A stretch of DNA of 64,000 nt, from assembly GCF_000186345.1 (NCBI RefSeq), contig NC_014962.1:930001-994000 (forward strand), read 5' to 3'. Below the pieces are notes generated by a model. That model was given only the letters and a program-made list of their open reading frames with translations. It ran no database searches and was not told where the DNA came from. Positions 3,146-59,095 of the stretch are shown piece by piece (positions within the stretch are counted from its first letter, which is position 1; each line of letters opens with the position of its first letter). The position numbers and the translations under genes were made by a program. Source of the DNA: Isosphaera pallida ATCC 43644 (lineage in GTDB: Bacteria > Planctomycetota > Planctomycetia > Isosphaerales > Isosphaeraceae).

Positions 3146-3192
3146 GACAACACTGGTTCGTTGCCCAGACGGTGAACCGAGTCCACGCCCGA

Positions 3193-5338: not shown

Positions 5339-5397
5339 CCTTTCCTCCCCTCCCGCGACCTTTTCCCGCCGCAACGTCGGATCGGAGAATCGCCGTC

Positions 5398-5949
5398 ATG
5401 TCCGAGCTCCCGCACACCAACGGCCACGCTCACGCTGCTCCTGCTCCGGTCGCTCCAATGCTCAGCGCCGAGCTGCGCGACCGGATCACGGCCCTGTTGC
5501 CCAACTACCCAAGCAAGCAGGCGGTGACCCTGCCTGCGCTCCACCTCGTGCATGAGACCTTCCGTTGCGTGCCACGGCAAGCGATGGTCGAGATCGCTGA
5601 ACTACTTGACCTGACTCCGGCTCAAGTGCATGACACCATGAGCTTCTATGGGTTTTTTCACCAAGCGCCGATTGGTGATGTCCGAGTCTGGATTTGCCGC
5701 TCAATCTCATGCGCGGCGCGGGGTGGCGACGAGCTCTTGACCAAGACCTGCGCCAAACTGGGGATTCATCCAGGCGAAACCACCAGCGACGGCAAGCTCA
5801 CGGTCGAGTATGCCGAATGTCTGGGGATCTGCGACCACGCCCCCGCTGCGTTGGCCGACGACGGGCGTATCTTCGGGCCGCTGGAGGACGAGTCCAGCCT
5901 GGAAGCCATGCTCGACGCCGTGCGCCAGGGGCCTGCTCCGGTGGGATGA
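5398..5949 (+). CDS. nuoE: NADH-quinone oxidoreductase subunit E (2Fe-2S)
   Basis: 24 kDa thioredoxin-fold subunit of the NADH dehydrogenase module, holding the 2Fe-2S cluster N1a. The ligands are Cys100 and Cys105 (C-x4-C in ICRSISC) and Cys141 and Cys145 (C-x3-C in ECLGIC). The start was set at ATG 5398 because GGAG lies about 10 bases upstream; the TTG at 5335 would overlap the nuoD stop. The product has 183 residues with a His/Ala/Pro-rich N-terminus. nuoF, its usual partner, does not follow: the next sequence is a pseudogene and then unrelated genes. The rest of complex I must be encoded elsewhere. Confidence 0.95.
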   Translation: MSELPHTNGHAHAAPAPVAPMLSAELRDRITALLPNYPSKQAVTLPALHLVHETFRCVPRQAMVEIAELLDLTPAQVHDTMSFYGFFHQAPIGDVRVWICRSISCAARGGDELLTKTCAKLGIHPGETTSDGKLTVEYAECLGICDHAPAALADDGRIFGPLEDESSLEAMLDAVRQGPAPVG

Positions 5950-6056
5950 GTTCACCGCCTCCGGAACAGACGAAACCACGTCGTCACCTTGCCACATCCA
6001 TCAAATCGAACCGTGCCCTGCACTTCTCTTTGTTCTTATTCGCCGATGTAATCGTG

Positions 6057-6304
6057 ATGACGCTCTCTAGATGGTTTCGGCTTGGCGTTGCCACGACGTT
6101 TGTCTTGATGGCTGGGTTGCTCACCTCGTCTCAGGAGGCTCTCAGCTGCACTTGGGCGGTTTACCTTGGTCCAGGGGATTGGATGGCGGCAAGCTCGCAA
6201 TTCATCACGGCCGGGAATATCAGGTGATGACCAATGCGCTGGTCTTTGATCAATAGCTGGCGTTGAACACCTCTTGGGAGCAACTCGGCGGCACCGTTCT
6301 AGGG
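6057..6304 (+). pseudogene. Remnant of a choloylglycine hydrolase-family (linear amide C-N hydrolase) gene
   Basis: Two pieces of one protein family lie in different frames. From ATG 6057 there is a signal peptide ending ALS and then CTWAVYLGPGDW. This matches the family start, where the mature N-terminal Cys is the nucleophile. From about 6182, in another frame, come DGGKLAIHHGREYQVMTN and ALVFDQ, a TAG stop at 6254-6256, and then LALNTSWEQLGGTVLG. These match the family block normally found some 200 residues downstream. The middle is deleted, the frame has shifted and a Gln codon appears to have become a stop. Downstream family sequence is also lost, with nothing recognisable in 6305-6637. 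Identification is from memory of the family. Confidence 0.7.
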
Positions 6305-6637
6305 TGGGTTTGGGGGTTAATTTAGCTAACCCTGGCCAGGGCTTCGGTTGGGATGGATCGGCGATCAAGCGGAGAGATTTCAGCCCGCCGAGCCGTTTGC
6401 GTTCTGATCTCATTCCTGAACACACCATCCGGGAGAAGCCGCGGCGTCATCCCGTTTCGTGCCAAGTTCGTGGGATGATTGAACCGAGTTGAACCGCCCG
6501 ATGGGATGGACGGGAGCATGGTCAAACGCGATGATGAGAGTCCCACGCAGGAGTGTTCCAACCTCAGGGATCGCCTACTGCGTGGTTGGTTTCGTTCCTC
6601 TCCCCCCTTGCCCACCGCGTCACAGGAGCGTGTTGCG

Positions 6638-7702
6638 ATGAACCATCCTCGCCGCATCGTTGGAGGTCGTCCGCTGTTGCTGACCCTGGCTCTCTCATCC
6701 TTGTTGACCTTGGGCGCGATTGCGGCCCGCGGCGACGAGCCGCCTGTCCCCAAAGCCACCCCGATCGAACCGATCGGGGACATTGTGCGGGTTCATCCCG
6801 ACTTCGACAAGCTGGTGCCCAAGGAAGCCCGGATCGAGCGTCTGGCCACCGGCTTCGAATGGAGCGAGGGGCCTGTGTATGATCGAATCAACCAGTGTGT
6901 CTATTTTTCGGACATTCCTAACAACGCCGTCATGAAGTGGAAGGAGGGCGAGGGGCTGTCCCGGTTTCTGTTCCCGTCTGGTTACACCGGCGACCAAACC
7001 CGCGGCGGCGAATCCGGCTCCAACGGCTTGCTGCTGGATCGGGAGAACCGTCTGGTGCTATGTCAACACGGCGACCGCCGGATCGCCCGGCTCAACGACG
7101 ACGGCAAAACCTTCACCACGTTGGCCGACCGTTATGAGAACAAGCGGTTCAACTCGCCCAACGACGGGGTGTTCAAGTCCAACGGCGACCTCTACTTCAC
7201 TGACCCCCCCTACGGCTTGGAGAAACAGACCGAGGATCCAGCCCGCGAGCTGGATTTCCAAGGGGTTTACAAAGTCACGCCCGACGGCACTGTCACGCTG
7301 CTAACCCGCGCGTTGTCCCGTCCCAACGGCATCGCCTTCTCGCCCGACGAGACGATCCTGTATGTGGCGAATTCCGACCCCCAACGGGCTATCTGGATGG
7401 CCTACGACGTCAACGAGGACGGCACGTTGGCCAACGGACGGGTCTTCGCCGACGTGACCGAGATGGTAGGCCGGTTTAAGGGGCTTCCCGATGGCCTCAA
7501 GGTGGACATCCACGGCAACCTGTTCGCCACCGGCCCGGGCGGGGTACACGTCTATTCGCCCGACGGCAAGCTGCTGGGACGGATCGACCCCGGCAACGCC
7601 ACCGCTAACTGTGCCTTTGGCGACGACGGTTCGACTCTGTACATCACATCCGACATGGATTTCTGTCGAATTCGCTTGAATACCAAAGGCCACGGCTTCT
7701 AA
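6638..7702 (+). CDS. Exported SMP-30/gluconolactonase-like protein
   Basis: Six-bladed beta-propeller of the SMP-30/gluconolactonase/LRE family, probably a secreted lactonase or sugar-related hydrolase. Start ATG 6638 has AGGAG about 10 bases upstream. The frame stays open further 5' but without family similarity. The 354-residue product has a signal peptide (MNHPRRIVGG, a hydrophobic stretch, likely cleavage after AARG). The propeller shows the family's metal-site blocks: EWSEGPVY, FNSPNDGVF, SRPNGIAFSPD and LPDGLKVD. It also has the FTDPPYGL motif that is common in planctomycete homologues. Exact substrate cannot be told. It stands alone between the pseudogene and ptsI. Confidence 0.9.
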   Translation: MNHPRRIVGGRPLLLTLALSSLLTLGAIAARGDEPPVPKATPIEPIGDIVRVHPDFDKLVPKEARIERLATGFEWSEGPVYDRINQCVYFSDIPNNAVMKWKEGEGLSRFLFPSGYTGDQTRGGESGSNGLLLDRENRLVLCQHGDRRIARLNDDGKTFTTLADRYENKRFNSPNDGVFKSNGDLYFTDPPYGLEKQTEDPARELDFQGVYKVTPDGTVTLLTRALSRPNGIAFSPDETILYVANSDPQRAIWMAYDVNEDGTLANGRVFADVTEMVGRFKGLPDGLKVDIHGNLFATGPGGVHVYSPDGKLLGRIDPGNATANCAFGDDGSTLYITSDMDFCRIRLNTKGHGF

Positions 7703-7791
7703 TGAGAAATGAGATCGGATCCGGCTGCCGTGCTGAACGAGTGGTCGGGCGGCGATCAATTCGGCGTGGAGACCGCCTGGTTGGGAATGGA

Positions 7792-7824
7792 CCCCGCTTC
7801 AACCATTGTGTCGGTGAAGCGGGG
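7792..7824 (+). terminator. Inverted repeat after the SMP-30-like gene
   Basis: A perfect 10-bp inverted repeat, CCCCGCTTCA (7792-7801) and TGAAGCGGGG (7815-7824), with a 13-base loop. It sits about 90 bases after the SMP-30-like stop and 120 bases before ptsI. There is no T-run, so it may be a U-less terminator or an operator for ptsI. Confidence 0.35.
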
Positions 7825-7943
7825 CGGATACACTAGAGGTGGTGCAACCAAGTCGTGGACGTCGCATCGCTCGCGGAACCAGCCAGAGCGGCGCGTTCGG
7901 TCGTTCGGGGCCGTCCGGCGTGAGGACCGAGCCGAGGTGACGG

Positions 7944-9797
7944 ATGTTTCGAGGAGTGGCCGTGAGTCCGGGGGTGGTTGTGGGGGTGGCTCGCAAGGTC
8001 GAGTCCCTGTTTGCGACGACGACCCCTGAGAAATGGACCACGCCGGACCAGGCCGCTCGGGAGATCGAGCGGTTCGACCACGCCGTAGAGGCGGCCACCG
8101 TCGAACTCAACCTGATGGTCGAAAAGGTCAAAGCCGAGGTGGGTCCGGCGGAATCCGACATTTTCCGATCCCATCTGGCGATTGTTCGTGACCCATCGCT
8201 GCGGGCGCGGGTTCACGAAGGGATCAAAGATCGTGGACTGACCGCCGCGGGGGCGTTGGTGGAGGTGTACCAGGATTACGCGGTCAAGTTCGCCAAGCTC
8301 GGTCAGGAGCGGTTCCGCGAACGAATGGCCGACATTCAGGACGCGCTTCAACGCATCGCCGCCCAGCTCGACCTGACCGCGGGCGTCATCGCTCCATCCA
8401 AGACGCCCGCCCCATCGCGGTTTCCCGGCCATCTCGTCGATGACACGGGGGGGTCAGACGACTTGGCCTCGTCAGAGGACTCAACCGTGACCACCCGCCA
8501 GGACGAGCCGCCGCTCGTGTTGGTGGCCCACGAGTTGCTACCTAGCCAGGCGTTGGGCTTGGGCGACATGGCCATTGCAGGAATCGTCACCGAGATCGGC
8601 GGCAGCACCTCGCACGCGGCAATCCTGTCCCGGAGTAAAGGGATTCCAGCCGTGTCGGGGGTGGTGGGTATCATGGCCGTCGTCAAGGATGGTGATCCCA
8701 TCATCGTTGATGGCCGTGAGGGATTGGTGCAGATTCGTCCCGAACCGGAGTCGGCTTCAGCTTACCGCAAGTTGCAACGCGAGTTCGTGCGAATCAAAGA
8801 CCGTCTCATCCTGCCTCCGGAGCGTCCGGCCGCCACCCAAGACGGTACCCCCATCGAACTGTTGGCCAACGTCAATGGACCCGACGACGTGATCGCCGCC
8901 CTCCGCGCCGGTGCCGGCGGCGTGGGCTTGTTCCGCACCGAATACTTGTTCCTCGCCCATCACGACTTCCCCGACGAGGACGAGCAATACGAGCATTATC
9001 GCCGGGTGGTCGAAAACGCCCAAGGCAAGCCGGTCACCATCCGAGCCCTTGACCTGGGAGGCGACAAGAGCGTGCCGTTTTTGGGCCAACGTCACGAGGC
9101 CAACCCCGCGCTGGGTTGGCGGTCCATCCGGCTGGTGACCGAACACGCCCGGATCTTCGAGCGGCAGATTCGGGCGATTCTACGAGCCGCCGCCCACGGC
9201 AAGGTCAATCTGCTCTTTCCCATGATCACCCACCTGGAGGAACTCAAGGTCCTCAACCGCCTGGTGGGCGACGCGATTGCCGACCTGGACCGCCAGGGCA
9301 TTCCCCGCGGCGCGCACATCAAATGCGGCGTCATGATCGAAGTACCCGCCGCCGCGATTATGATCGATGCCATTTTGCGTGAAACGGAGTTCATCTCGAT
9401 TGGCTCGAACGACTTGATCCAATATCTCGTCGCCGCCGACCGGGACAACCCTAAAGTCGCTCATTTGTGCGACCCGCTGCACCCGGCGGTGTTTCGGGTG
9501 ATCCGCTCGATTATCGAAGCCTGTCAACGCACCGGCGTTCCCTTAACCGTCTGCGGCGAAATGGCCGGTCAACCCCGCGCCGCCCTGGCGCTGCTGGGTC
9601 TAGGCGCGCGGCGCTTTAGCATGTCGCCGGCGTTCGTGCCCACGATCAAAACCCTGCTTTCCTCGGTCTCATTAGCCCAGGCGGAGCGGTTTGCTCATCA
9701 CGTCCTTCAACTCAAGACCAGTCGAGAGATCCGCGCTTATCTTTCCGACCGACTTCGCGAGGTCTCTCCCGAACTGGCGATGCTCGACTTTTGCTGA
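7944..9797 (+). CDS. ptsI: Phosphoenolpyruvate-protein phosphotransferase (PTS enzyme I)
   Basis: Cytoplasmic enzyme I, which autophosphorylates from PEP and passes the phosphate to HPr. The 617-residue product begins MFRGVAVSPGVVVG, the standard start. Next come the HPr-binding helical region, the swivelling domain with the phospho-histidine His224 in GGSTSHAAI, and the TIM-barrel PEP-binding domain. The last contains RTEYLF, RALDLGGDK, the GSNDLIQY block and the catalytic Cys537 in VCGEMAGQP. The active His lies about 35 residues later than the usual 189, because of a low-complexity Ser/Thr/Asp insertion around residues 155-190. No HPr gene or sugar permease is adjacent, so a regulatory role is possible (inference). 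Confidence 0.93.
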   Translation: MFRGVAVSPGVVVGVARKVESLFATTTPEKWTTPDQAAREIERFDHAVEAATVELNLMVEKVKAEVGPAESDIFRSHLAIVRDPSLRARVHEGIKDRGLTAAGALVEVYQDYAVKFAKLGQERFRERMADIQDALQRIAAQLDLTAGVIAPSKTPAPSRFPGHLVDDTGGSDDLASSEDSTVTTRQDEPPLVLVAHELLPSQALGLGDMAIAGIVTEIGGSTSHAAILSRSKGIPAVSGVVGIMAVVKDGDPIIVDGREGLVQIRPEPESASAYRKLQREFVRIKDRLILPPERPAATQDGTPIELLANVNGPDDVIAALRAGAGGVGLFRTEYLFLAHHDFPDEDEQYEHYRRVVENAQGKPVTIRALDLGGDKSVPFLGQRHEANPALGWRSIRLVTEHARIFERQIRAILRAAAHGKVNLLFPMITHLEELKVLNRLVGDAIADLDRQGIPRGAHIKCGVMIEVPAAAIMIDAILRETEFISIGSNDLIQYLVAADRDNPKVAHLCDPLHPAVFRVIRSIIEACQRTGVPLTVCGEMAGQPRAALALLGLGARRFSMSPAFVPTIKTLLSSVSLAQAERFAHHVLQLKTSREIRAYLSDRLREVSPELAMLDFC

Positions 9798-9860
9798 GTT
9801 CAAACCCGGCCCGCGGCTTGAGACCGGTTGCCCCCCTTTGATGGAAGGCTTCGAAATCCG

Positions 9861-11411
9861 ATGATCGGCTCATCCGCTTCGTCGTTCTGCGCGACCGTCC
9901 CCACCGCCACTGGCGTTGTCTTGCCCGTCATCGCGCCGGGAAGTGGTCAACAGGTAGACGAGGTGCGTTCCAGCACACCCGCCGAGGTGGAGCAAACCGT
10001 GGCGGCGGCCCGCGCCGCGTTCGAGACCTGGTCCCGAACCACCTGGCGTCATCGCCGTCATTGGCTCAAGTCCTGGTCCCAGCGTCTGACCGACCAAGCC
10101 GACGTTTGGATCGAGGATCTGATTCGTCTGCACGGCAAGCCGCGCGTCGAGGCGATCGGCGAGGTGTTGACTACCCTGGAGGCAATCCGTTGGACCATTG
10201 ACCACGGCAAGTCAGTCCTCAAGCCGCGCCGGATTCCCCCCGGTCGGCAGCGCCTAATGAACATCCCCACGGCAGAAATCGTGCCGAACCCGTTGGGCGT
10301 GATCGGGGTGTGGGGCACCTGGAACTTCCCTTTATACCTCAACGCGCCGGTGATCGCTCAGGCGCTGGCGGCAGGGAACGCGGTCGTGTTCAAGCCGTCG
10401 GAATTGGCAGCAGCAACCGGTCGGCGGTTGGCCCAATCCTGGGAGGGTTTGGATCATCCGGCCGGACTTCTCGGGCTGATTCAGGGCGACGCCGAAGTCG
10501 GTCGCCGTTTGGCTGAACAATCTCTTGACAAAGGAGTGTTCACAGGTGGAATTGTTGGCGGCCGTGCGGTGTTGACGGCACTGGCGGCGCGGGGCATTCC
10601 GGCGGTGGCTGAGTTATCCGGTTATGATCCGGCGTTGATTCTCCCCGATGCGGATCGGGAGTTCACCTTGCCCGGGTTGGTTTGGGGGTCGTTTGTTAAT
10701 GCCGGGCAAACGTGCATTGGAATCAAGCGGATTCTCGTGGTGGGCACGCAGACCGACGCGCGGCAATGGTGCGTCGCCCTGGCCACGGCGGCGGCCCGCT
10801 TGCGGGTGGGTGATCCGGCGGGATCGCAGGGTGGCGCGGTTGATGTGGGACCGTTGATTTCCAATTCCGCCCGTCAACGGTTCGCCGGGTTTTTGGCCGC
10901 CGCGCGGGAACACGGCGCCATTGTCCATCAGGGTGGCCGAGTGCTTGAGGAACGCGCAGGCTGGTTCGTCGCGCCGACCGTGCTGGAAGCCGGTCCCGAC
11001 CCCGACGCCGTGGAGCAAGCGTTAGCGGGGTGTTTCGGTCCGTTGGTGCTGGTCCGAAGTCATCCCACCTGCGAGGCGGCTATCGACGCAATCAATCGCG
11101 GTGACTACGGCTTGGGGGCGTCGGTCTGGGGCCGCGACCTAAAGGCCGCGCGGCTGGTCGCCCAACGCTTGCGGGTGGGGATGGTCACGATCAACGACGT
11201 GATCGCTCCCACCGCTCACGCCGGAGCGCCATTTGGGGGAGTACGTGCCAGCGGCTATGGACGAACCCACGGGGCCGACGGCCTCCGCGAGTTCGTCCAC
11301 CAGAAAACCCTGTATGTGCGACCGGCCCGGGGATGGCGACCCCAGGTTTATCCCTATCACGATCGCTTGACCCGGCTCTTGCGGGGGCTCCTGCGCATCC
11401 TTCACCACTGA
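9861..11411 (+). CDS. NAD(P)-dependent aldehyde dehydrogenase
   Basis: Aldehyde dehydrogenase superfamily enzyme that oxidises an aldehyde to the acid. From ATG 9861 it is 516 residues; an in-frame TTG 9828 is a less likely start. Visible are the cofactor-binding motif GVWGTWNFPLYL with VFKPSE and the general-base Glu251 in AELSGYDP. The nucleophilic Cys285 lies in NAGQTCIGIKR, and the C-terminal block is APFGGVRASGYGR. The general layout resembles fatty or aromatic aldehyde dehydrogenases with a C-terminal basic/hydrophobic tail (LTRLLRGLLRILHH) that might associate with membrane. The substrate is unknown. It follows ptsI by about 60 bases and may be cotranscribed. Confidence 0.9.
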   Translation: MIGSSASSFCATVPTATGVVLPVIAPGSGQQVDEVRSSTPAEVEQTVAAARAAFETWSRTTWRHRRHWLKSWSQRLTDQADVWIEDLIRLHGKPRVEAIGEVLTTLEAIRWTIDHGKSVLKPRRIPPGRQRLMNIPTAEIVPNPLGVIGVWGTWNFPLYLNAPVIAQALAAGNAVVFKPSELAAATGRRLAQSWEGLDHPAGLLGLIQGDAEVGRRLAEQSLDKGVFTGGIVGGRAVLTALAARGIPAVAELSGYDPALILPDADREFTLPGLVWGSFVNAGQTCIGIKRILVVGTQTDARQWCVALATAAARLRVGDPAGSQGGAVDVGPLISNSARQRFAGFLAAAREHGAIVHQGGRVLEERAGWFVAPTVLEAGPDPDAVEQALAGCFGPLVLVRSHPTCEAAIDAINRGDYGLGASVWGRDLKAARLVAQRLRVGMVTINDVIAPTAHAGAPFGGVRASGYGRTHGADGLREFVHQKTLYVRPARGWRPQVYPYHDRLTRLLRGLLRILHH

Positions 11412-11563
11412 TCTGGTCTCGTCTTGAGTTCAGGTCTGAGCCTCTTATCTTGAGCGACCCTCAACCCAGATCGATTTCGATTCTCTTCCGGTTGGCCTTC
11501 GCTCCCAGGACTCCCTACCCGGGGAAGCGAATCCGCGAGGGTTAGAAATACCGCGCGGTGAAG

Positions 11564-11587
11564 AAAAACGAAAAACCGACGCGGTTT
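11564..11587 (-). terminator. Rho-independent terminator of rpsU
   Basis: On the minus strand a short stem AAACCG / CGGTTT with loop CGT is followed by a T-rich tract (TTCGTTTTTC). It lies about 55 bases after the rpsU stop codon. The stem is short but the T-run is the best in this window. Confidence 0.5.
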
Positions 11588-11641
11588 GGGAGCGGGAGTA
11601 ACCTGGATCGGGGTGAGTCAAGGGAGCTCGCCGATCGATCG

Positions 11642-11833
11642 TTAGACTCGGGCCGAGGATTGACGAGCCTTCCGCAACCGTTTGAGTTCCTCGCGGCGAC
11701 GGCGCTCACTGGGCTTCTCATAGTAGGCTTTGCGTCGCATTTCTTTGCGTAAGCCGCTGCGTTCACAGAGCTTACGGAATCGCTTGACCGCTTCTTGAAT
11801 CGTCTCGCCCGTCCGCACCCGAAGTTTAACCAC
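11642..11833 (-). CDS. rpsU: 30S ribosomal protein S21
   Basis: Small, very basic 30S protein involved in mRNA binding at initiation. The 63-residue product reads [19 protein letters not shown] at its start, followed by the family's RKLCERSGL and [16 protein letters not shown] blocks. It starts at GTG 11833, supported by a perfect GGAGG six bases upstream; the longer open frame lacks family similarity. It is monocistronic, with a candidate terminator downstream. Confidence 0.95.
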
Positions 11834-47515: not shown

Positions 47516-50500
47516 TCAACGACGGCGGAAGGCGGCTGGTCGCGGCAGAGTCGAGGCAACGGCTATATTGTTGGTGTTGGACGGGTAAACGATCGCGCCT
47601 CGGAAGAGTTGATTAGAGTTGCCGAAGTTGTCCTGAACCTGGCCGCTTAGAACGGTGACAACCAAACGTCCGCGTTGGTTGAGCCGACCGGCGATGTCCA
47701 GGCGGACGGTTTGCGGGTCGATCAGGGTCACGTTAGAGATCCGCGCCCGGTTGCGGGGGTTGATGGCCGAGCCGGCGATGCGGAAATCCGAAATCTGGAG
47801 CGACTGTGGATTCACCGGGCGGTTGAAGGTGATCAAAACGAACCGGGGAGCCTGGCGGGGATTGCCGCGCCGGGATAGTTGGGTGACCACCAGCGGGTTG
47901 GCCGGTGGCGGCGGCGTGGTTGCCAGGGTGAACGAGGTGGCGAAGCCTTCGTTCCGCAAGCCTTCGGTGTCGAAGATCCCGTTGGGGTTGACGTTGAAGT
48001 TCAACACCCCTTCGCGTAGCGGACCGACCAGATCGACCCGAACCGTCGCCGGACCCAGCACTGTCACGCCACTGATCTGAGCCGGACTGAGCGGATTGAT
48101 CGCCGTGCCGGAGACCGCGAAATCCTCCACACCCACGGTGACCGGATTGAACTCGCGGTTGAAGGTGACCACGAACGAGTGAGTGGTCGAACCCAGCGCG
48201 AGATTGGGGATGACGCTGGTGACGCCGAAGGAGGTCAGCGGTGGGGCTTCGGTGCCATTGAACTCGTAGGCTCCAATGTCGGCCAGGGTCCCGGGGGTTC
48301 CCACGTTGGGAATGATCACCCGACCACGATTGCGGAAGTCGCGGGCTGGAGCGAACAGGTCGTTGCCGCGATCGACCGCCGCCGAGTTGGACGAAAGGTC
48401 GAAGTTGGCTGTCAGCAAGAACAGCGCGATACCGTCGCCGTCGGGTCTGGGGTCGCGGGGCACCTGGAAGCTCGGGTTGCCGGTGAGGTTACCCAGAGCG
48501 TCCGGTGTGGCGGAGAGCAGAGCCGGGTCGAAGCCGCCGCCGACCCCCTGGGTGTCGTCACCGGGCAGAGTTGGGTTGACCCCGTTGTTAGAGAACAAGT
48601 TGTTGCGGACATTCAGCTTGCCTGGTGTGCTTGCGCGGATCGCTCCGCCGAAATCGGTGGCGTTGGGTCGGGGTTGGTTGCGCCAGAAGATGTTGTTGAC
48701 CACATTGACCGCGGTAGCCACGCCGGAGGTTTGCAGGGTGGCGTCCAGTCCCAACTCGTTGTAGGCGAAAGTGTTGTTGACAACCCGGTGGGTACCGGCC
48801 AGGCCGTTGGCCGTGTTGTCTTCGATCCGCAGCCCGGCGATGTTGCCGGCGAAAACGTTGTTGAAGACATTGACCACGCGGTTGTTGAAACTAGAGTTGA
48901 CTACCAGCAGGCCAGACCCACCATTGACGATGATGTTGCGATCGACCTGGAGGGCCGAGTCGATGACCTCGATCGCCTGGCGCCCCTCGGTCGGGAAGCC
49001 ACCGCCGGAGAACTCGGGGGCCGAGATGGCGAAGCCGGAGACCCGGGTGGGGAAGCCGGGGATGCTCAGCAGGTTGGTCGCAATGACCGTCGAAGTGATC
49101 GCCGGGTCGGTCGGCTGCACCCGCAAGAAGGTTTGGAGCGGCTGGCCGGGGGTCGGCAAGGCGTCCGTCGAGTCCAGGCCGGCCGAGACCAGTTGGACGG
49201 CCGGCTTCATGATGACCTGTTCATCATAAGTGCCTGGCAGCACGCGGATGAAGTCGCCGGGGCCGGCGGTCCGCATTGCCTGGGCGATGGTGCGGAACGG
49301 TCGGGACCGCGAGCCGTCGCCGAAGAAGGGTCCGTCGTCGTCCACGAACAGGTTGCGGCTGAGGGTCGGGTCGAACACCACCGTTTCGATCGGGTTGGTG
49401 ACCAGACCGGGGCTGCCCGCCACGTTCAGCGGGTTGCCTGCGATGTCGGTAATCGCCTCGCTGAAGGTGATCCGGTACACGTCGTTAACCGGGTTGCCCC
49501 GCAACGGGACGCGAATGGTGTGGCGGCCCGTGAACGGCTGGAACTCGACCGTGACCGCCGGATCGAGGCTCACCACCACGTCGGCCGCCGGGTTGGTCAG
49601 CGGGTCGGCCGTGGGGCCGCCGAAGAGACCGTCGCCACCGGAGCGAACCACCGTGATGCCGGTCAGTAGGCTTTCCAGATCGAGGTTTTCGTCGGCCACC
49701 AAGGTGATGAACAAGCGACCATTAATGATCTGGAACTGGCTGTCGGGTTGGGGCGTAACGCTTAGCAGACGCGGACTGCGGGTATCGACCACCACTGACA
49801 GCGGAGCCGACACCGTGGTGTTACCCGACTGATCGGTAATGACCACCCGCGCCAGGCTTGCGCCGGGTAGATCGGCACGGATGCGTCCGTCGGCCTGATA
49901 CTGAATCGGCGAGTCGGGCAGCGAGGCCAGTGGGGTGCCCGGCAAGTTGGCGGCGTTGACCCCCACGGTGACGCTGAAGGTGCCGTCGTTGGCGGTGATG
50001 GCTGAACCGGCGAACTGGAAGACCGGGTTACGGCTGTCGGTGGCAATCTCGAGCCGCACCGTTTGACCGGCTTGCGGGTTAGCGGGTGGGAACTGGTCGG
50101 TGATCCGGCCCAGGAAGGTCGGGGTGGTGTCGAAGGTAATCCGATCGCCTAACAAGGACGGGCGAGGGTTGGTGTCGCTGGTCGGGTCGAGTCGGAAGGT
50201 GTTGGTCACCAACGTCGGAGCGTTGCGGTCCACGATGAAGTCGAGTTGAAAGTCGCCGCCGGACCGACCGTCGCCCGAAGGCAGCGGACGTTGCAGACCC
50301 GAGGCGTCCCGGTTCTCGCCGTCGATCGGCAGACCGGCCGCGTCCCTGACCTGGTTGGTTCCGGTACCCCGGATCGTCAAACGATACAGGTCCGAGGACA
50401 GGTCGATGCCCGCCGTCACCACGGTCAGCGTCAACGCGTTGTTGTCCACGATCAGGTTGGCGTTCGGAATCGGCACGTTGCGGTCGTTGCCGTTGCCGAA

Positions 50501-53500
50501 GATGCCGTCCCGACCTGAGGCTTGCAGAAGGATCGACTGGTTCGTGACGGTCGCCGGATCGAGCCGGTTGCTCAACCGGAAGGTGATCCGCTGGATGTCG
50601 CCGTTGGTCGTGGCGACGCCGTTGGCTGGGTAGAAGTTGGTCAGAACCGGGTCGGTTGCTCCCGGCGCGAGGATCGCCGCCTCAACCGGCCGGACCTCGC
50701 TGAGAGGCACGATGCGGGTGGTGTCGATGCGGAAATCAAGCCGGAAGTTGCCGCCGGGGAAGCCGTCGCCCGAGGGGAGAGCCGCCGCGAGACCCGCCGC
50801 GTTGAGGTTCTCGCCGTCCAAAGCCAGGCCGGACTGGTCGCGGACCACGTTGGAGCCGGTGCCCCGGATGACGAGGCGGTATAGGTCGGAGGCCAGGTTG
50901 ATCCCCGCCAGACTGACCGTCAGGGTCAGGGCGTTGTTATCGACCGCCAGGTTGCCTGAGAGGTCAATGAAGAGGTCGTTACCGTTGTCGAAGATGTCGT
51001 CCCGGCCGGATGCCTGGAGGATCACCGTCTGGTTGGTGACGGTTGTGGGATCGAGCCGGTTGTTGAACCGGAAGGTGATTTGTTGCAGTTCGCCGCTGAC
51101 ATTGATCACCTGGCCGGGTTCATAGATGTCCAGCGCTGTGGGGGTCGTCCCTCCGACCGGCACCACGGTGGCCTGGACATCCAAACCGGGGCCGAACGGT
51201 ACCACGCGGGTGGTGAAGACCTCGCGGAACTCGAAAGCACCGATGTCGAAGAACGGTTTCGACCCGAACCCGGTGTTGGCGACCCCAGCGAAGTCCTGAC
51301 GCAGGAAGCCGCGTTGGTCGCGTTCGCCCTCAAACGGCAGATAGCCGAAGGTGGCGGCGTTGGCACCACTGCCGGTGAAGGCCGGGCCGTTGCCGCCGAG
51401 ACTCACGGGCAGAGCGGCGATCCAGGCGTCGCGGAAGGCCCGTTGGTTGGGGAAGCTGCCCGGCAGGGCCACGATGTCCTGCGAGTCCAGGATCGGAGCG
51501 CTGAAGGTGGGGAATGGATCTTCCTCGAAGCCGACCCGAATCGAATTGCGGTTGCCCAGGGTGGTGCCCAGCACTTGGTCGGAGAGCGGACGGAGGATCC
51601 GCGCGACCGGGTTGAGGGTCAGTTCGGAGCGAGCTGCGTCGATCGCCGCCGAGCCAGGTTGCAGGCGGAAGTCGCGGGCGGCGGCATTGACGAACCGGGG
51701 ATCGCCCACGATCGGGAAGTTGTTGCCCAGGAACGAGCCGTTGTCGCCCGTCACAAAGACCTGATTCACTCCAGGGGTGAACAGGTTGTATTGCATTTGC
51801 GAGAACCGCACGTTCCCCTCGAACCGGGCGGCCAGGTTGCCGATGTTCGAGAAGATATTGTTCATCACCAGGACCGAGGCCACCGCGTTGTTGGAGGCGT
51901 CGTTGGGGAAAGGATCGGAGCCGGTGACATTCACCCCGATGCCAGTGATGTTGTGGAAGGTGTTGTTGAGGATAATCCCGATGGTCGGTTCGGGGTTAGC
52001 CGCCACGTTGCCGCCGGGGAAGCCCGAGCCAACCGCTCCCTCTGACAGCACCCGCACACCGGTGGGCATGTTGGCGAAGGTGTTGTTGTGCAGGAAGAAC
52101 TGGTTAGCTTGTCCGCGCTGGCCGATCCGGGGCGCGTTGGTGGCTGGGGGACCGCCCACGACGCGAATCAGGCCATTGAACCCGGGATGGACCACCAAAC
52201 CGGCCTGGCTGAAGTCGGCCAGGTTCGAGTTGGTGATCGCCAAACGCTTGGGCATGTTGTTCTGAATGGCGGGGACCGCTGCGCCCTTCTTCTGTTCACG
52301 CCAGGAATCGTAGTCGGCGGTGGTGATGTCGCCGTTGAAGGCGTTCTCGGTACCGGTCCCAGCGATGTTCAACACGTCGGTGACCCCGCCGCCCTGCATG
52401 TTGATTCGGGTGAGGAACCGCAAATCGGCGTTGTCGATCGTGTTGCCACCCCGCGGGTCGAGCAGGCTGTAGTTGTTGGCCGCCAGGCTGCCGAAGCCGA
52501 TCACGCCGCCGTCGCCGGCAGCCGGCGGCGCGTTGTCACCCCGGAAGGCGTCGGACATGTCCACGCCCCGAACCGTCACGCCCACGCTGTTGTCACGCAG
52601 CGAAGTGACAATCACCGGTACCCGTTGCTGGTCGAGGGTTTCGTTGGCCGGGATGCCCAGGATGCGGAAGGAGGCGTTGCGGCCCGCGTCGAAGAAGGGG
52701 TCGGTGTCAGGATCCACTCCGTCGTCGTTGCCGATCAAGACACCCGCGCCGGCGTTGGAGTCGATCGCGGTACTCGCAGCCGAGCCCATCCCAGTGTCGC
52801 CATTGCCGTGAGGCGTGAACTGGTTGAGCAGCTTGACGATCAAGCTCTCGCCGGGACGGGCGATCCGGGTGTTGTTGGCCAGCAGGGTGTCTGGCATCGC
52901 GCTTTGCCAGGTCAAGGTCACCACTGGGGTGACTTCGGGGCCGAAGGCATTGGGGTTGGGAGCTGGGAACGGAGCGCCGCCCAGGTTAATCGTGCCCCGT
53001 AGGATGTGCTGGAGATCGGTGTCGTCCCAGACCGAGTTGACCGTCAGGTTGGCCACTGCGCCAGGGGCCGGCAGCGGAGCTTCTGCGAAGCCGACACCAA
53101 GAACCGGACCAGCGTTGGCCAGGATGTGTAGGCCGTCGTACTGGTTGTTCCGCAGCACGTTGCCCCGGAAGAACGGGTTGCCGCTGGACAGAGGCGTTTG
53201 CGGATCGGCCGCGAGCAAACCGTTGGGCGTGGTAACCAGCGCTGAAAGATTGAAGAAGAAATTGTTGTTGGTGATGATCGCCCGGCTACCCGTCGTGTCC
53301 TGAGTCGTGGCGATCAGACCCAGGGTCGGCGCTGCCGGAATGGTGCCGGTGATGGTGTTGCGCGGGCCGCCGCCGTAGAAGAAGTCGGCCTCGTCGATCA
53401 CCACCCGAGCGCCCGAGGAGACCGTGATGCCGCCCCAGCGGCTAGTTAGTGGAATAGGCGCGTTTTCCGGCTGGTTGGGGAAGCGAGGCTGAAGTTGCGG

Positions 53501-56500
53501 GCCGACGTAGCTGGGGTTGGGCGTACCGTTGACCAGATCCACATCCTTGGAGTTGTCCGAATCCACCCGCGGGACGATAACCCGCCGCACGTTGCCGTCG
53601 GGCGAGACCCATTCGGTGAACGCTAGGTCGTCGAATAGGCTAGTGAAGACCACGCGGGCGTCGCCTACCGTACTGGCCCGGAAGTTGGGATTGGGCACGA
53701 AGGTGCCGCCCGGTCCCGGAATGAGGGGACGGTAGTTCGCGCCGAAGGCGTCGAAGCCGCCGAAACCGTCGTCGCCGCCGATGTAGACGCGGTCGCCGAC
53801 GATCAGCGAGTTGCCTCGGGGCGGAGTCCCTTGCAGGTTAGGCACATCGATCCCAGCACCGGCCTGGAACTTGAGCAACATCCCCGGCTGGACGTAGAGG
53901 CGGTTGGCCGTTGGGGCCACTGCGCCAAAGGGTCCATTGAGATTGAGTTCCTGACCGAGTTGGAGGTTGGCCAGGAACAGGTGGGGAACTGGGTCGTCGA
54001 ACACGAAATCACGGGTGTTGCCGTAAGCTCGCGCGTTGGTTTGCAAGATCACGCCGTTGTCTTCGGGACGAACCAGCAGACCGTTGAGCGAGTTGTTACT
54101 CAGCTCAACATTGCGGATCTTGACGCCGCGGGCGACTCGATCCTCGCGGAAGCTGTCGAAGTTGGCCGAGATTGCCGCTTGATTCGAGTTGGGGCCGCCG
54201 GTTTCCGACACCTCGACGTTTGAGATGGTCGGGCGGCTGTTGAATAGGCTGATGGCGTCGAACCGGGTGCCGATGGTTTGTGGCACCGCGCCGCCGGCGT
54301 AACGCACGGTGGTGAAGTTCAGCTTGGACATGACGTCGTCTGCGCCGGAGACCCGCAACCCGGTCGTGGCGCGGCTGCGGAGGATGATACCGCCCCAGTC
54401 GCCGCCGCGAGGTTGGGTCAGGTTGCGGTCGCCGTTCGTGTCGCCGCCCACGCTGTCGTCGGCCAGCGAGGTGAAGTTGACCCGTTCGGTGGCGGTGCCG
54501 CGGGCTTGGAGACTCGAACCTTGCTCTTCGACGATCAGGGTAGCGTTGCGGAACTTCACCGCCGAACCCGGCTCGAAGACCAGCATGGTTTGGGCCGGCA
54601 CCGTCGCCGAGCCGTCGGCCCCCAACGCGGCGGGTGCTTGCAGCACGAAGGGACGCTGGACGATCTGACCAGTGATCGGGTCGAACGAGGGAGCCGAGGG
54701 CAGCGCCACGATCACCGCCGGGCCACCGGTGGCCGCCACCCGCTCGCGGGCGGCGATAAACGCGGAGCGGTCGAACCGTCCGTTGCCGTTGAGGTCGGCC
54801 TGACCGGGGTTGACTCCGGGATTGAACCCGGTGCCGAAGTTAGAGGCATCGTTATTCAGCGCTTCGGGGCCGAGGGTGGGGAAGGGCCGGGCGAGCGAGC
54901 CGTCGGGGTCATCTACCGTGATGAACGGGTTATCCACGTAGTCGGCCCGAGCATAGATTACGTTGCCGGTCGGCACCACCATGAAGCCGGTGACGAACGA
55001 GCCACCGGGACGAAGATCGCCCGACATCCCTGAGCGGATCGCGCCGTCGGGTAGCAGAGTGTCGTAGAACGGCAGACCGGTGGCGGGGTCGAAGGTCGGT
55101 TGCAGGTTGCCCAGCGTATCGACCGCCGGACGCGGCGTGCCCAGGTATTCGCCGTCAAGCTGGTTGCCGAAGCGGTCGCGGATGATCGCGTTGCCTTCGT
55201 TGATGATCACGATTCGGTAGTGATCGGCGGGCAACTCGCCGATGGGACGAATCTCGACCCGGGTGTTGGGCCCGTTGGGACCGTTGACCAAGGAGACCGT
55301 GATCGGAACCTCGGTACCTGAGATACCGTCCAGGCCGAAGTCGCCATCCACCGGACTAGTAGAGCTGTCGGCTGAACGGATCAGACGGAACGCTCCGTTG
55401 GGGATCGGCTGAAGCTGTTCGGAGAAGTCGAACCGAATCACCGAGGGCGGGGTCGGAGCGCGTCCCACCGTGCCCACGGGGCCGGGAATCTCGAAGAACG
55501 ACTTGTCGGGCCTCAGCACCGTTTCGCCGGTGTTGGGGTCGGTCGCCTCCAACTGCATGTCGGTGATGAACACCGGTTGCGATTGAATGACGAGATTGAG
55601 ATCAATCAGGTTGATGAACGATTGGGCGCTGGGCACGATGGAGTTGCCCGCTGCATCGACCAGGCCGGGCAACGCGCGAAGCTGGTAGGACCCTGCGGGC
55701 AGACCTGGATTCAAGGTCATGTTGATCCGACCGGTGTAGCCATCGACCGGCGTGAACTCGCGTGGCGTGGGTGTGAACCGAATCGAGGAAATGAACCGGG
55801 TTAGGTCTTCGGGCTGGATCGGATTGCCATTGACATCGGAGACCCGGACTAGCCGGTAGTTGGCCAGGCTGATCGCGGCGCTGGGGTCCAGCGCGAAGTA
55901 ATCGAGGTTGGCCGGGACTTCCAGAGCGGGCCGGGCGGCCACGATCGGGTCGAGAATCGAGAATTGGAACGAGGTGATCGAGGAGTAGGGGGCGGTGGTC
56001 ACCGGCTGACCGTTGATGAGGGTCAGGTCGGGACGAACCAACGGCCGCGAGGTGTCGATTCGCACCGAGGCGTTGAACACGGTGGCCAGACCGTTTTGCG
56101 GCGGGGCATCCAGAGCGCCGATGACACCAACCCGGATCAGGTGGAAGCCGTCCACCAGATCGTCGGGCACTTCGATGCGGAAGGTGCCGTTAGCGTCGGT
56201 GGTGGTCACGAGGTCGGTGGGCGAGGTGCCGAGCAAGCCCCGCCCGTTCGTACCGACCCGAAGCGCCAACAGGTCGTTGGGTTGACGCGAATTGATCTGA
56301 GCGACTACCACAAGATTGGCGACCCCGCCCAGCAACGAACTGCGGACCTGACCGATGAAGACCGGGCGGCGGTTGTTCGTGTTCTCGTCGCCTTGCACAC
56401 CGGAGTCGCTGGCCGGTTCCAGTTGGAAGAAGGAGATTTCCGGCGCGGTGAGGATCAAGTTGCCCAGGTTGCGCACGAAGTTGCCGCCCGGCTCGCCGTT

Positions 56501-59095
56501 GCCCGAGGGCAGGAAGCCGAAGTTGGGGTTGATCTCGCCGTCTAGGCGGTTGCCCACCAAGTCGGTCACCGTGTCGAACAAGGTCAGCTGATAGGTGCCG
56601 CTGAGCAGTTCCGATTGCGGGACGTTGGTCAAGTCGAAGACCCAGCGGGTGCCGGTGATATCGCCAGCCTCCGGAGCGACCGTCATGCCGCTGAGATTGA
56701 CCGGAACGCCGTTGCGGGTCAAACGCAGCGCCGAGGGAATCATCGTGGCGGGGTTGATCGCCTCGTTGAAGGCGAAGCTGATCCGACGGCTGCCGAAGCT
56801 GAATTCAGTGACGCGGGGGCCGGCGATGTCCTCAACTCGGAAGGGGATGGTCGCACCCACCAGAGGTTTGTTGTCAATCGAACGGATCGAGCCGTCCACG
56901 AGCTCGGCGACGTAGTCGCCATTGGGAGTGCGGCCCGGAGGAGCGGTCACGGTGATCGGCCAGCGGACGATCCGGGGGTTGTCGGGATCGACGATCGGCG
57001 CGCCGGTGAGAACCTGGATCGCCAACGGGGGTTGGGACGAGGTGGTGGCAGTGATTCGCAGGTCAGTGGCGTTGAGGGTGGCCGGATCGACCGGACGGTT
57101 GAAGGTGACGGTGAACAGACGAGGCAGCGAAGTGGCGGTGGCGTTGGCAGCCGGGATGGTCGAGAGGACGCGGAATTGATCGATCGCCTCCAAGGCGCGG
57201 GTCATGTCGGGGCGTCCGTACCCGCCTTGGAAGTTCCAGGGCTGGTTGTCCACGCCGGGGACCGTCGGCGAGGTGTTGTTGGCGAGGAAGATCGAAGCGG
57301 AACGGAGCGCGTCGAAAATCTCGTCGCGGGTGGAATTGGGGCTGAGTTGCCGCATCAAGGCCACGAGGGCTGCTAGGTTGGGAGCCGCCGCCGAGGTGCC
57401 GAAGAAGTTGGGGAACCCGTCGGGCTCGATGTCGGTTTGGCCCAGCGGACCGGGCGGGAAGAAGGAGGTGTTGCCTGCTTGAGGCGCGGAAAAATCAGGC
57501 TTGAGCAATCGAACCGGCTGAGGCAAACGGTTGCCGTTGGCGTCGAAGACTCGGGTCACTGGGCCGAATGCTGAGAAATCGGCCGAGATCAGCTGATCGG
57601 GACTGGCATAGGGAGCGGCCTCGAAATAATTGACCGCACCAACGCCGATCGCCTCGGGCGCGGTTCGCACGCCGAAGGCGGTTGGGAAAGTGGTTTCAGG
57701 ACCGAACTGGATCGTGTTGTTGGGATCGACCACCAAATCGTTGAAGCTGCTGAACCGAACCCGTCCGGGCGCGACTCCCGCCTTGAGTTGGATCGAGACG
57801 AACAGTTGTTGGCCGCCCGGGAAAAGGACGACCTCCAAGGGCACGCCGGTTCCACCAGGCGCGCCGGGGAGGTTGTTGTCTACCCCACTGGCCACAATGT
57901 TGCCGTTGGCGTCGGTGATGAAGAAGTCGAGGTCGGTCGTAGCGTTGCCCCTCAAGCCGTCGAAGGGGTTGTCCCACTGGAACGAGAGCCGACCGCCGAA
58001 GGTACTGATCGGCAAACGGGTAACCGGCGGTCCCCCACCCGGATTGAAGTTGTGGTAAATGCCCGCGGGCAGTCCTTGGGGGGTGGCCTGCACCCCTCGG
58101 AACGGGCTTTCATAGCCCGAATTGGCCGAGTTGCCGCTGGCGCTGAGATAGATCACATTGTTGGTGATGGTCACATCGCGGGCGGCCTGGGCCACGATGC
58201 CGTCCTGGAACATCGGTTCATTCAAGAAACCGATATCGTCCACGATCACGTCCGAACCCGCTGAGGCCAGAACCCGGATGGCTTGAGCGAAATCCGAGAT
58301 CGAGAAGCCAACCGAGTGGAAGAACAGTTCGGCTCCCGGCGCGATGTCGTGGATCAACTCCATCATCGCCCGGCCTTCGTCGGATTGATTGAAACCAACG
58401 TCGTTGAGAACCACGACATTGGGAGGCAGGTCGCCAGTGGCGATCGAATCGGCCAAACCGCCCTGGAACGAGTTGGCACTGTCGGAAATCACTCCCACCC
58501 GCACCCCGGTGCCGTCAACACCAAACTGGGCGCGGATGCCGGCGGCCACCGGCGGCAGACCCCCGGCGAAGACGTCGTCAGCCTGGTTGTTGGCAACCCC
58601 TTGTTGCAACCGCTGGGGCAGAATGCTGGGCATTAGGCTGGTCACGTTGGGCATCAACGCGACCGTTTCCAACTGCGCGATCGGTAGCCAACCCGAGACC
58701 GTGTTTCGCTCCGCGGAAGCGGAAGTCGAGCGGAACCCCAGATTCCGCAGCTGGTTGGTCAAGGTGGTGTGAGGGCCGGAACCCACCACCGTTAGGTGTA
58801 CCTCGTCGCCCCGGATCGAGAGCACCTGAGTCAGTTCGGTCTGGAAGGGCTCGTTCGACCCGGAGAGCAAGTAAGACTTGTAAGCCCGGTTGAGACGAAA
58901 CAAAAACGCGCCGCCTTTGGCCAGAGGCCCGGTTTGCAGCTCCTGGAACTCCTGGGTGCCGGGAATGATCGGCGTGAGGCTCAGCAGGGTCCGGTCTTCC
59001 AGATTCTCCACCCGGAAGAAACCGCGTCGCCGGGCCTTGAGCCCGCGTCGCCCCCGTCCGAAGATTCCACCCGCATCGTGGTTGCCGCTGCTCAT
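47516..59095 (-). CDS. Giant extracellular subtilisin/sedolisin-like protease with Ig-like and beta-helix modules
   Basis: A single open frame of 3859 residues from ATG 59095, with GGGAGAG nine bases upstream; it opens at 59140. A basic leader is followed by LEDRTLLS (32-39), the motif found at the start of many giant planctomycete extracellular proteins. The protease domain (about 195-640) has Asp205 in VGVISDS and Ser568 in GTSAAAPN. Where subtilisins have His-Gly-Thr it reads DEGRAM (Glu240), as in S53-like proteins. Beyond it come repeated Ig-like modules, beta-helix regions ending in FDIGAFEF and ADIGAYEF, a DLNGNGRFD calcium-type loop, and an Arg-rich C-terminus. No dockerin or PEP-CTERM signal is visible. 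It probably acts at the cell surface or in the matrix. Confidence 0.85.
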   Translation of the reverse strand: MSSGNHDAGGIFGRGRRGLKARRRGFFRVENLEDRTLLSLTPIIPGTQEFQELQTGPLAKGGAFLFRLNRAYKSYLLSGSNEPFQTELTQVLSIRGDEVHLTVVGSGPHTTLTNQLRNLGFRSTSASAERNTVSGWLPIAQLETVALMPNVTSLMPSILPQRLQQGVANNQADDVFAGGLPPVAAGIRAQFGVDGTGVRVGVISDSANSFQGGLADSIATGDLPPNVVVLNDVGFNQSDEGRAMMELIHDIAPGAELFFHSVGFSISDFAQAIRVLASAGSDVIVDDIGFLNEPMFQDGIVAQAARDVTITNNVIYLSASGNSANSGYESPFRGVQATPQGLPAGIYHNFNPGGGPPVTRLPISTFGGRLSFQWDNPFDGLRGNATTDLDFFITDANGNIVASGVDNNLPGAPGGTGVPLEVVLFPGGQQLFVSIQLKAGVAPGRVRFSSFNDLVVDPNNTIQFGPETTFPTAFGVRTAPEAIGVGAVNYFEAAPYASPDQLISADFSAFGPVTRVFDANGNRLPQPVRLLKPDFSAPQAGNTSFFPPGPLGQTDIEPDGFPNFFGTSAAAPNLAALVALMRQLSPNSTRDEIFDALRSASIFLANNTSPTVPGVDNQPWNFQGGYGRPDMTRALEAIDQFRVLSTIPAANATATSLPRLFTVTFNRPVDPATLNATDLRITATTSSQPPLAIQVLTGAPIVDPDNPRIVRWPITVTAPPGRTPNGDYVAELVDGSIRSIDNKPLVGATIPFRVEDIAGPRVTEFSFGSRRISFAFNEAINPATMIPSALRLTRNGVPVNLSGMTVAPEAGDITGTRWVFDLTNVPQSELLSGTYQLTLFDTVTDLVGNRLDGEINPNFGFLPSGNGEPGGNFVRNLGNLILTAPEISFFQLEPASDSGVQGDENTNNRRPVFIGQVRSSLLGGVANLVVVAQINSRQPNDLLALRVGTNGRGLLGTSPTDLVTTTDANGTFRIEVPDDLVDGFHLIRVGVIGALDAPPQNGLATVFNASVRIDTSRPLVRPDLTLINGQPVTTAPYSSITSFQFSILDPIVAARPALEVPANLDYFALDPSAAISLANYRLVRVSDVNGNPIQPEDLTRFISSIRFTPTPREFTPVDGYTGRINMTLNPGLPAGSYQLRALPGLVDAAGNSIVPSAQSFINLIDLNLVIQSQPVFITDMQLEATDPNTGETVLRPDKSFFEIPGPVGTVGRAPTPPSVIRFDFSEQLQPIPNGAFRLIRSADSSTSPVDGDFGLDGISGTEVPITVSLVNGPNGPNTRVEIRPIGELPADHYRIVIINEGNAIIRDRFGNQLDGEYLGTPRPAVDTLGNLQPTFDPATGLPFYDTLLPDGAIRSGMSGDLRPGGSFVTGFMVVPTGNVIYARADYVDNPFITVDDPDGSLARPFPTLGPEALNNDASNFGTGFNPGVNPGQADLNGNGRFDRSAFIAARERVAATGGPAVIVALPSAPSFDPITGQIVQRPFVLQAPAALGADGSATVPAQTMLVFEPGSAVKFRNATLIVEEQGSSLQARGTATERVNFTSLADDSVGGDTNGDRNLTQPRGGDWGGIILRSRATTGLRVSGADDVMSKLNFTTVRYAGGAVPQTIGTRFDAISLFNSRPTISNVEVSETGGPNSNQAAISANFDSFREDRVARGVKIRNVELSNNSLNGLLVRPEDNGVILQTNARAYGNTRDFVFDDPVPHLFLANLQLGQELNLNGPFGAVAPTANRLYVQPGMLLKFQAGAGIDVPNLQGTPPRGNSLIVGDRVYIGGDDGFGGFDAFGANYRPLIPGPGGTFVPNPNFRASTVGDARVVFTSLFDDLAFTEWVSPDGNVRRVIVPRVDSDNSKDVDLVNGTPNPSYVGPQLQPRFPNQPENAPIPLTSRWGGITVSSGARVVIDEADFFYGGGPRNTITGTIPAAPTLGLIATTQDTTGSRAIITNNNFFFNLSALVTTPNGLLAADPQTPLSSGNPFFRGNVLRNNQYDGLHILANAGPVLGVGFAEAPLPAPGAVANLTVNSVWDDTDLQHILRGTINLGGAPFPAPNPNAFGPEVTPVVTLTWQSAMPDTLLANNTRIARPGESLIVKLLNQFTPHGNGDTGMGSAASTAIDSNAGAGVLIGNDDGVDPDTDPFFDAGRNASFRILGIPANETLDQQRVPVIVTSLRDNSVGVTVRGVDMSDAFRGDNAPPAAGDGGVIGFGSLAANNYSLLDPRGGNTIDNADLRFLTRINMQGGGVTDVLNIAGTGTENAFNGDITTADYDSWREQKKGAAVPAIQNNMPKRLAITNSNLADFSQAGLVVHPGFNGLIRVVGGPPATNAPRIGQRGQANQFFLHNNTFANMPTGVRVLSEGAVGSGFPGGNVAANPEPTIGIILNNTFHNITGIGVNVTGSDPFPNDASNNAVASVLVMNNIFSNIGNLAARFEGNVRFSQMQYNLFTPGVNQVFVTGDNGSFLGNNFPIVGDPRFVNAAARDFRLQPGSAAIDAARSELTLNPVARILRPLSDQVLGTTLGNRNSIRVGFEEDPFPTFSAPILDSQDIVALPGSFPNQRAFRDAWIAALPVSLGGNGPAFTGSGANAATFGYLPFEGERDQRGFLRQDFAGVANTGFGSKPFFDIGAFEFREVFTTRVVPFGPGLDVQATVVPVGGTTPTALDIYEPGQVINVSGELQQITFRFNNRLDPTTVTNQTVILQASGRDDIFDNGNDLFIDLSGNLAVDNNALTLTVSLAGINLASDLYRLVIRGTGSNVVRDQSGLALDGENLNAAGLAAALPSGDGFPGGNFRLDFRIDTTRIVPLSEVRPVEAAILAPGATDPVLTNFYPANGVATTNGDIQRITFRLSNRLDPATVTNQSILLQASGRDGIFGNGNDRNVPIPNANLIVDNNALTLTVVTAGIDLSSDLYRLTIRGTGTNQVRDAAGLPIDGENRDASGLQRPLPSGDGRSGGDFQLDFIVDRNAPTLVTNTFRLDPTSDTNPRPSLLGDRITFDTTPTFLGRITDQFPPANPQAGQTVRLEIATDSRNPVFQFAGSAITANDGTFSVTVGVNAANLPGTPLASLPDSPIQYQADGRIRADLPGASLARVVITDQSGNTTVSAPLSVVVDTRSPRLLSVTPQPDSQFQIINGRLFITLVADENLDLESLLTGITVVRSGGDGLFGGPTADPLTNPAADVVVSLDPAVTVEFQPFTGRHTIRVPLRGNPVNDVYRITFSEAITDIAGNPLNVAGSPGLVTNPIETVVFDPTLSRNLFVDDDGPFFGDGSRSRPFRTIAQAMRTAGPGDFIRVLPGTYDEQVIMKPAVQLVSAGLDSTDALPTPGQPLQTFLRVQPTDPAITSTVIATNLLSIPGFPTRVSGFAISAPEFSGGGFPTEGRQAIEVIDSALQVDRNIIVNGGSGLLVVNSSFNNRVVNVFNNVFAGNIAGLRIEDNTANGLAGTHRVVNNTFAYNELGLDATLQTSGVATAVNVVNNIFWRNQPRPNATDFGGAIRASTPGKLNVRNNLFSNNGVNPTLPGDDTQGVGGGFDPALLSATPDALGNLTGNPSFQVPRDPRPDGDGIALFLLTANFDLSSNSAAVDRGNDLFAPARDFRNRGRVIIPNVGTPGTLADIGAYEFNGTEAPPLTSFGVTSVIPNLALGSTTHSFVVTFNREFNPVTVGVEDFAVSGTAINPLSPAQISGVTVLGPATVRVDLVGPLREGVLNFNVNPNGIFDTEGLRNEGFATSFTLATTPPPPANPLVVTQLSRRGNPRQAPRFVLITFNRPVNPQSLQISDFRIAGSAINPRNRARISNVTLIDPQTVRLDIAGRLNQRGRLVVTVLSGQVQDNFGNSNQLFRGAIVYPSNTNNIAVASTLPRPAAFRRR

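Follow-up and report, generated by a model that had tools for sequence, protein, structure and literature searches.

The giant surface protein considered here, encoded in a window of 64,000 nucleotides (the whole stretch of Isosphaera pallida DNA that was analysed), begins with a head that is probably a secreted peptidase of subtilisin fold, built around Ser568, Glu240 and Asp287, with its acid at subtilisin position 125, and produced as a zymogen with a subtilisin-type pro-domain. It belongs to a subfamily, named Glu-type below, in which glutamate stands where subtilisins have histidine. What gives this proposal its direct support is the conservation of the site, the predicted fold and pro-domain, and the fact that the corresponding giant of a sister genus bears an Asp-His-Ser subtilase at this position. 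It is tempting to go further and to propose, in a more tentative way, that an active Ser-Glu-Asp peptidase, its acid at position 125 in a third placement, is the functional equal of a classical Asp-His-Ser subtilase, both having been exchanged as heads of one orthologous giant surface protein.

A giant gene and its modules

Read on the minus strand, positions 47516-59095 translate into 3859 residues with zero internal stops; the ORF list gives the same frame with a TTG start 15 codons upstream of the ATG. A protein of that length had been announced there by the initial annotation, which gave no strand, and the uninterrupted frame agrees with it. The genome that carries the gene comprises 5,529,304 bases in two contigs, the larger of 5,472,964 bases, and the nearby minus-strand genes are ordinary ones (ClpB-type ATPase, HAD hydrolase, glutamine synthetase III). 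The giant is laid out as follows.

47516..59095, minus strand: gene of the giant protein, 3859 residues, ATG at 59095; relatives in Isosphaeraceae
58979..59020, minus strand: N-terminal motif FFRVENLEDRTLLS, residues 26-39, read in the sequence; similar motifs in other giants
58628..58807, minus strand: subtilisin-type pro-domain, residues 97-156, predicted as beta-alpha-beta-beta-alpha-beta in the AlphaFold2 model
57176..58543, minus strand: Glu-type subtilisin-fold domain, residues 185-640, from alignment, model and structure matches
57656..58117, minus strand: beta-rich insert that separates the Asn block from the Ser block, residues 327-480, extent approximate, from the strands of the model
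57026..57178, minus strand: Big_5 Ig-like domain, residues 640-690, from Pfam
48677..49318, minus strand: DUF1565, residues 3260-3473, from Pfam
48257..48412, minus strand: choice-of-anchor Q domain, residues 3562-3613, from NCBIfam

The N-terminal motif resembles the planctomycete export motif, and the Pfam scan of the giant gave no match to it; DUF1565 is presumably of the beta-helix type. Besides Big_5 and DUF1565, Pfam recognizes Big_13 and CopC in the giant, NCBIfam adding the choice-of-anchor Q domain. Peptidase_S8 (PF00082) passes its gathering score, with 24.6 against 21.8 bits, over residues 481-607 only, the serine half of the head. The motifs of the head are VISDS at 202-206, DEGRAM at 239-244, ASGNS at 319-323 and GTSAAAP at 566-572.

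A predicted subtilisin fold with its pro-domain

An AlphaFold2 model of residues 185-640, made from 31 sequences (pLDDT 88.5, pTM 0.91), matches subtilases with Z of 29-31, most of the 50 rows listed showing an rmsd of 2.0-2.5 over 235-257 residues; with its best matches, at Z about 30, to subtilisins, structure prediction upholds the subtilisin-like head that had first been read from the letters. A second model, of residues 37-640 and from 71 sequences (pLDDT 89.4, pTM 0.92), adds the pro-domain, at residues 98-156 of this model; pro-domain and catalytic domain jointly align to pro-subtilisin E (3whi: Z 29.0, 322 aligned, rmsd 3.8) and to pro-Tk-subtilisin (2zwo: Z 28.9, 322 aligned, rmsd 3.5). 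In these models strand 199-204 closes with Ser204 and helix 240-251 opens with Glu240; Asp286 is the last residue of strand 283-286, directly followed by Asp287, and Ser568 comes second in helix 567-584. No solved Glu-type structure was found, the 60 matches listed in each search being named as ordinary subtilases; matches in a viral structure library were named subtilases, with low TM-scores. That S53 entries number zero among the 50 matches listed per structure search does not exclude an S53-like fold and is no evidence of a difference. The median spacing from Asn to Ser is 243 in the Glu-type, 198 in the His-type relatives introduced below, 68 in S8 and 114.5 in S53.

Residues of the site and their conservation

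The subtilisin numbering of the head rests on alignment to eight relatives that keep the histidine (His-type: L019, L020, L022, L025, L210, L212, L216, L217); they have a long insert and share the short base helix of the Glu-type and S53. We relied on them because a profile comparison with the solved structures 9ues and 3afg aligns the N-terminal piece weakly (only 1.5 and 1.3 bits) and fails to bring Glu240 opposite His; it puts residues 204, 205, 286 and 287 in the same places. The counts below refer to 125 Glu-type members.

58484..58486, minus strand: Ser204, position 32 (catalytic Asp in S8); S in 124/125, Asp in 8/8 His-type relatives
58481..58483, minus strand: Asp205, position 33; D in 115/125, otherwise T 5, N 4, A 1
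58376..58378, minus strand: Glu240, position 64, proposed general base; E in 125/125
58238..58240, minus strand: Asp286, position 124; D in 124/125
58235..58237, minus strand: Asp287, position 125, proposed catalytic acid; D in 125/125, Ser in 7/8 His-type relatives
58130..58132, minus strand: Asn322, position 155, oxyanion hole; N in 125/125
57392..57394, minus strand: Ser568, position 221, proposed nucleophile; S in 125/125

In a four-group alignment the S53 Glu lies two columns off that of Glu240, and the S8 rows show Asn in the Asp287 column, owing to a gap; S53 was compared by motif spacing, and position 125 was set by the His-type alignment together with a published account (PMC11593635). 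The S8 comparison set comprises ten sequences and two exchanged heads; because it was chosen by the Asp, His and Ser motifs, its Asp (12/12) and His (12/12) are not used as evidence. Between A1 and ten S8 sequences, hhalign aligned the C-terminal part alone.

The family sample was drawn from 245 open reading frames that matched the Glu-type profile, of which 185 spanned it and 133 were kept after identical or contained sequences had been dropped. These 133 full-length members, the window protein and its paralogue counted, have Glu at position 240 in 125 cases and His in 8, in keeping with the initial reading of a glutamate that replaces the subtilisin histidine at position 64. Since every full-length member without His there has Glu (125/125), the glutamate cannot be put down to chance. 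The 125 rows, among which no pair is 98% identical or more, come from genome_contigs (78), planctomycete genomes (45), one plasmid and one viral contig. For genome_contigs the best 80 of 376 relatives were taken from a scan of at least 591 stretches, and conservation of Ser568 is partly built in for these 78 rows, as GTS formed part of one of the two search patterns; Glu240, Asp287 and Asn322 were absent from both patterns.

Eight columns of 453 never vary in the 125 rows (G195, E240, D287, N322, G511, F564, G566 and S568), and four of the six site positions tested (S204, E240, D286, D287, N322 and S568) are among them, with a hypergeometric P of about 6e-7; in the 30 heads borne by giants, all six fall among 41 invariant columns (P about 4e-7). 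Conservation of the site had been set beforehand as a refutation test of the initial reading, and Glu240 and Ser568 prove invariant, an outcome in favour of that reading. The combination S32/E64/D125 of the Glu-type is to be set against D32 (8/8), H64 and S125 (7/8) in the long-insert His-type relatives, a change that sits on a single branch and counts as one event, not as repeated covariation.

To judge by record titles, the Glu-type group is spread over many bacterial phyla and the archaea. In a scan of 11 proteins, Pfam and NCBIfam yielded no model specific to the class, and the one annotated relative covering the domain, encoded by a Mitsuaria plasmid, carries the label of a plain 'S8 family serine peptidase'. 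Export-linked modules were seen among ten relatives scanned: a T9SS sorting tail in two, and RTX repeats, a dockerin (below cut-off) and PGF-pre-PGF in one each. The archaeal members belong to Methanosarcina and Methanomicrobiales (L131, L137, L126), that of Methanosarcina also bearing NosD/beta-helix and PGF-pre-PGF domains. A divergent, putatively viral member with Asn at position 33 lies on a contig from a viral collection (L206). The genome of the window itself holds a Glu-type paralogue (G000 contig 2, 1390551-1391828, minus strand; L195, L036), an open frame of 1142 codons that is 40% identical over the head domain and is without the downstream part of the giant.

A head that can be exchanged or lost

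What is new here is the distribution of the giant: among 45 genomes of Isosphaeraceae, its own included, the downstream region is matched in 37 and the head domain in 36 (partial or weak matches counted), the head being exchanged in one genus and missing in another. In thirty cases a Glu-type head shares its frame with the downstream region, and all these heads keep S204, E240, D286, D287, N322 and S568 (30/30), while Asp205 is lost in five. The giants of genus g174 (G231, G232; L167, L168) have as their head a classical Asp-His-Ser subtilase, with LDSG, HGT[SA]VAG and GTSAASP, and a pro-region unlike that of the window protein, to which their downstream parts are 32-47% identical; in the case of G231 the stretch analysed reaches no further than the front part of the giant. 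Those of genus g162 (G205, G206; L169, L170) are open frames of 3138 and 3111 codons from which the peptidase head is absent, a LESRRLLS or LEDRRLLS motif being followed by the Ig-like region. No GTS peptidase motif was found in any frame of at least 80 codons in the stretches of g162 analysed, and a search of its two genomes by the Glu-type head domain gave no match elsewhere. Exchange and loss amount to one event each, both seen in two species of one genus.

The head is, then, a module that can be exchanged and lost. Its exchange for a classical subtilase supports a peptidase role, the head having been replaced by an equivalent, and the headless giants speak against a giant that depends on cutting by its own head. 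The initial annotation had suggested that the protease might process the rest of its own chain; with two species of one genus keeping headless giants in open frame, this suggestion finds no support. Essential self-processing is unlikely: self-cleavage is possible, yet not as a step that giants in general could require.

Some observations on other large frames may be added. The protein of L167 (1888-12690) differs from the window protein by its C-terminal tail, rich in Pro and Lys. At L191 a 3667-codon antisense frame (746-11746, minus strand) opposite the giant gene is a GC-rich overlap artefact, which masked the real plus-strand giant gene when the longest open reading frame was picked. In another planctomycete (G167 contig 1, 4054408-4055298, minus strand; L162) a classical S8 match lies in an open frame of 6789 codons.

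Proposed mechanism and its alternatives

According to a comparison of subtilase structures (PMC11593635), the subtilisin site consists of acid, base, residue 125, oxyanion residue and nucleophile; residue 125, which is Ser in 47 of 49 structures (PCSK9 and a thiazoline oxidase/protease being the exceptions), touches the base with its carbonyl group and the catalytic acid through a water molecule, and S53 has shifted its acid onto the helix of the base. In the Glu-type head, Ser568 would be the nucleophile, Glu240 would replace His64 as general base and Asn322 would keep the S8 oxyanion hole. Because Ser204 has replaced the Asp of position 32, we place the supporting acid at Asp287, directly after the strand ending in Asp286. 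The acid would then occupy a third place of the fold: it is on the first strand in S8, at Glu+4 in S53, and would be at position 125 here. Acids may also be conserved for structural reasons or to bind a metal; Asp287, however, is invariant at just this position and the acid at 32 is gone, which would best be understood as a shift of the acid to this third element. Catalytic activity is predicted, and so are the parts assigned to the single residues and any substrate there may be. In an unrelated, serine-protease-like ester-bond site, Glu for His is reported to keep up to 87% of crosslinking (PMC12679949). If the head is active, the fold of subtilisin would allow proton transfer with three alternative placements of the acid, a gene group of many bacterial phyla and archaea would gain a function, and the exchange of heads in close relatives offers a natural paired comparison.

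It is unlikely, though far from negligible, that the head is a pseudopeptidase, keeping the subtilisin fold to bind peptides or to pack against the rest of the giant, with no cutting. Both His and Asp32 are missing, the top Foldseek matches of the first model include CspC, a named pseudoprotease, beside the protease CspB, and among the papers listed by the literature search there was no experimental study or enzymology of a Glu-type member. A dead site would however be expected to drift, whereas the nucleophile Ser, the Asn of the oxyanion hole, Glu and Asp287 never change, in 125/125 members and in 30/30 giant heads; moreover, a complete Asp-His-Ser subtilase stands at the same place in one genus.

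The Asp of VISDS had been taken at first for the catalytic one, which would make Asp205, Glu240 and Ser568 the triad. Asp205 is common (115/125) and adjoins position 32, but it corresponds to position 33, Ser204 filling position 32, and it gives way to T, N or A in 10/125, including five of the 30 giant heads, in which the six remaining site residues are all retained. On the alignment to Asp-His-Ser relatives and this loss we reject Asp205 as the catalytic acid; the corresponding triad is improbable.

That the head should be a true sedolisin (S53), sharing origin and mechanism with kumamolisin, is very improbable. It has in common with S53 a Glu for His64 and a short helix before Ala-Pro, the 13-residue step from Glu to the Pro of that motif being the same as in S53 motifs, but also common to the His-type relatives. 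The initial annotation saw here an S53-like arrangement, which fails on the details: at Glu+4, where six of six fetched S53 motifs have Asp, the Glu-type has Met (122) or Leu (3), and the oxyanion residue, Asp in 5/6 of S53 and Asn in 1/6, is Asn in 125/125. With these two defining residues absent, S53 membership was rejected. The predicted pro-domain is of subtilisin type, and the pro-kumamolisin activation domain PF09286 is not among the five Pfam hits of the giant at E 0.01, nor in any of 119 planctomycete genomes, the control being positive in 1/14.

Profile comparison tells a similar story: the Glu-type profile matches the His-type with E 4e-50 over 375 columns, gap-free at the site motifs, S8 with 1.2e-13 and S53 with 1.8e-4, the S53 match being weak (probability 48, against 100 for His-type and 98 for S8). 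The Glu-type forms one group in both trees (66 rows, SH-aLRT 96; 26 rows, 100/99), and its link with the His-type is favoured, not firm, at 92/78; in the careful tree of 26 rows the His-type rows are not one group (two changes). Both trees and profile scores favour the His-type, but the AU test does not reject a tree joining Glu-type and S53 (p 0.403), and we therefore do not claim that the glutamate arose independently of S53. The last reading, in which Asp205, Glu240, Asp286 and Asp287, four acids near one pocket by alignment, would bind calcium for stability and not for catalysis, recalls the many secreted subtilisins that bind calcium, but it leaves the joint invariance of Ser568 and Asn322 unexplained and is scarcely credible.

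Place among known subtilases

We can now come back to the proposed Ser568-Glu240-Asp287 peptidase and compare it with what is known. It has in common with the classical S8 enzymes Ser221 and the oxyanion Asn155 (Ser568 and Asn322, 125/125 each); Asp32 and His64 are lacking, Ser204 (S in 124/125) and Glu240 (125/125) standing instead. In the broad sense of S8, it appears from the models to share the subtilisin fold and the subtilisin-type pro-domain. The His-type planctomycete Asp-His-Ser subtilases (L019 and others) form a possible bridge between S8, Glu-type and S53.

Siezen, Renckens and Boekhorst (Proteins 67:681) reportedly recognized in silico, in 2007, a sedolisin-like Glu-Asp-Ser subset of prokaryotic subtilases, in which the Asp lies on a beta-strand in similar position, and not on the helix of Glu. 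The Glu-type group is presumably that subset: Glu on a helix, Asp by a strand and Ser all appear in the predicted model of the head. On that basis, the Glu-type class itself is not new. The CDD entry cd05562 (Peptidases_S53_like) presumably includes members with the DEGRAM motif; the literature search found no paper with this accession. A member of the sister E-H-S subset, SprP, has reportedly been studied at the bench (PMC3937732). Beyond the subset of 2007, the architecture of the giant and the exchange of its head are additional here.
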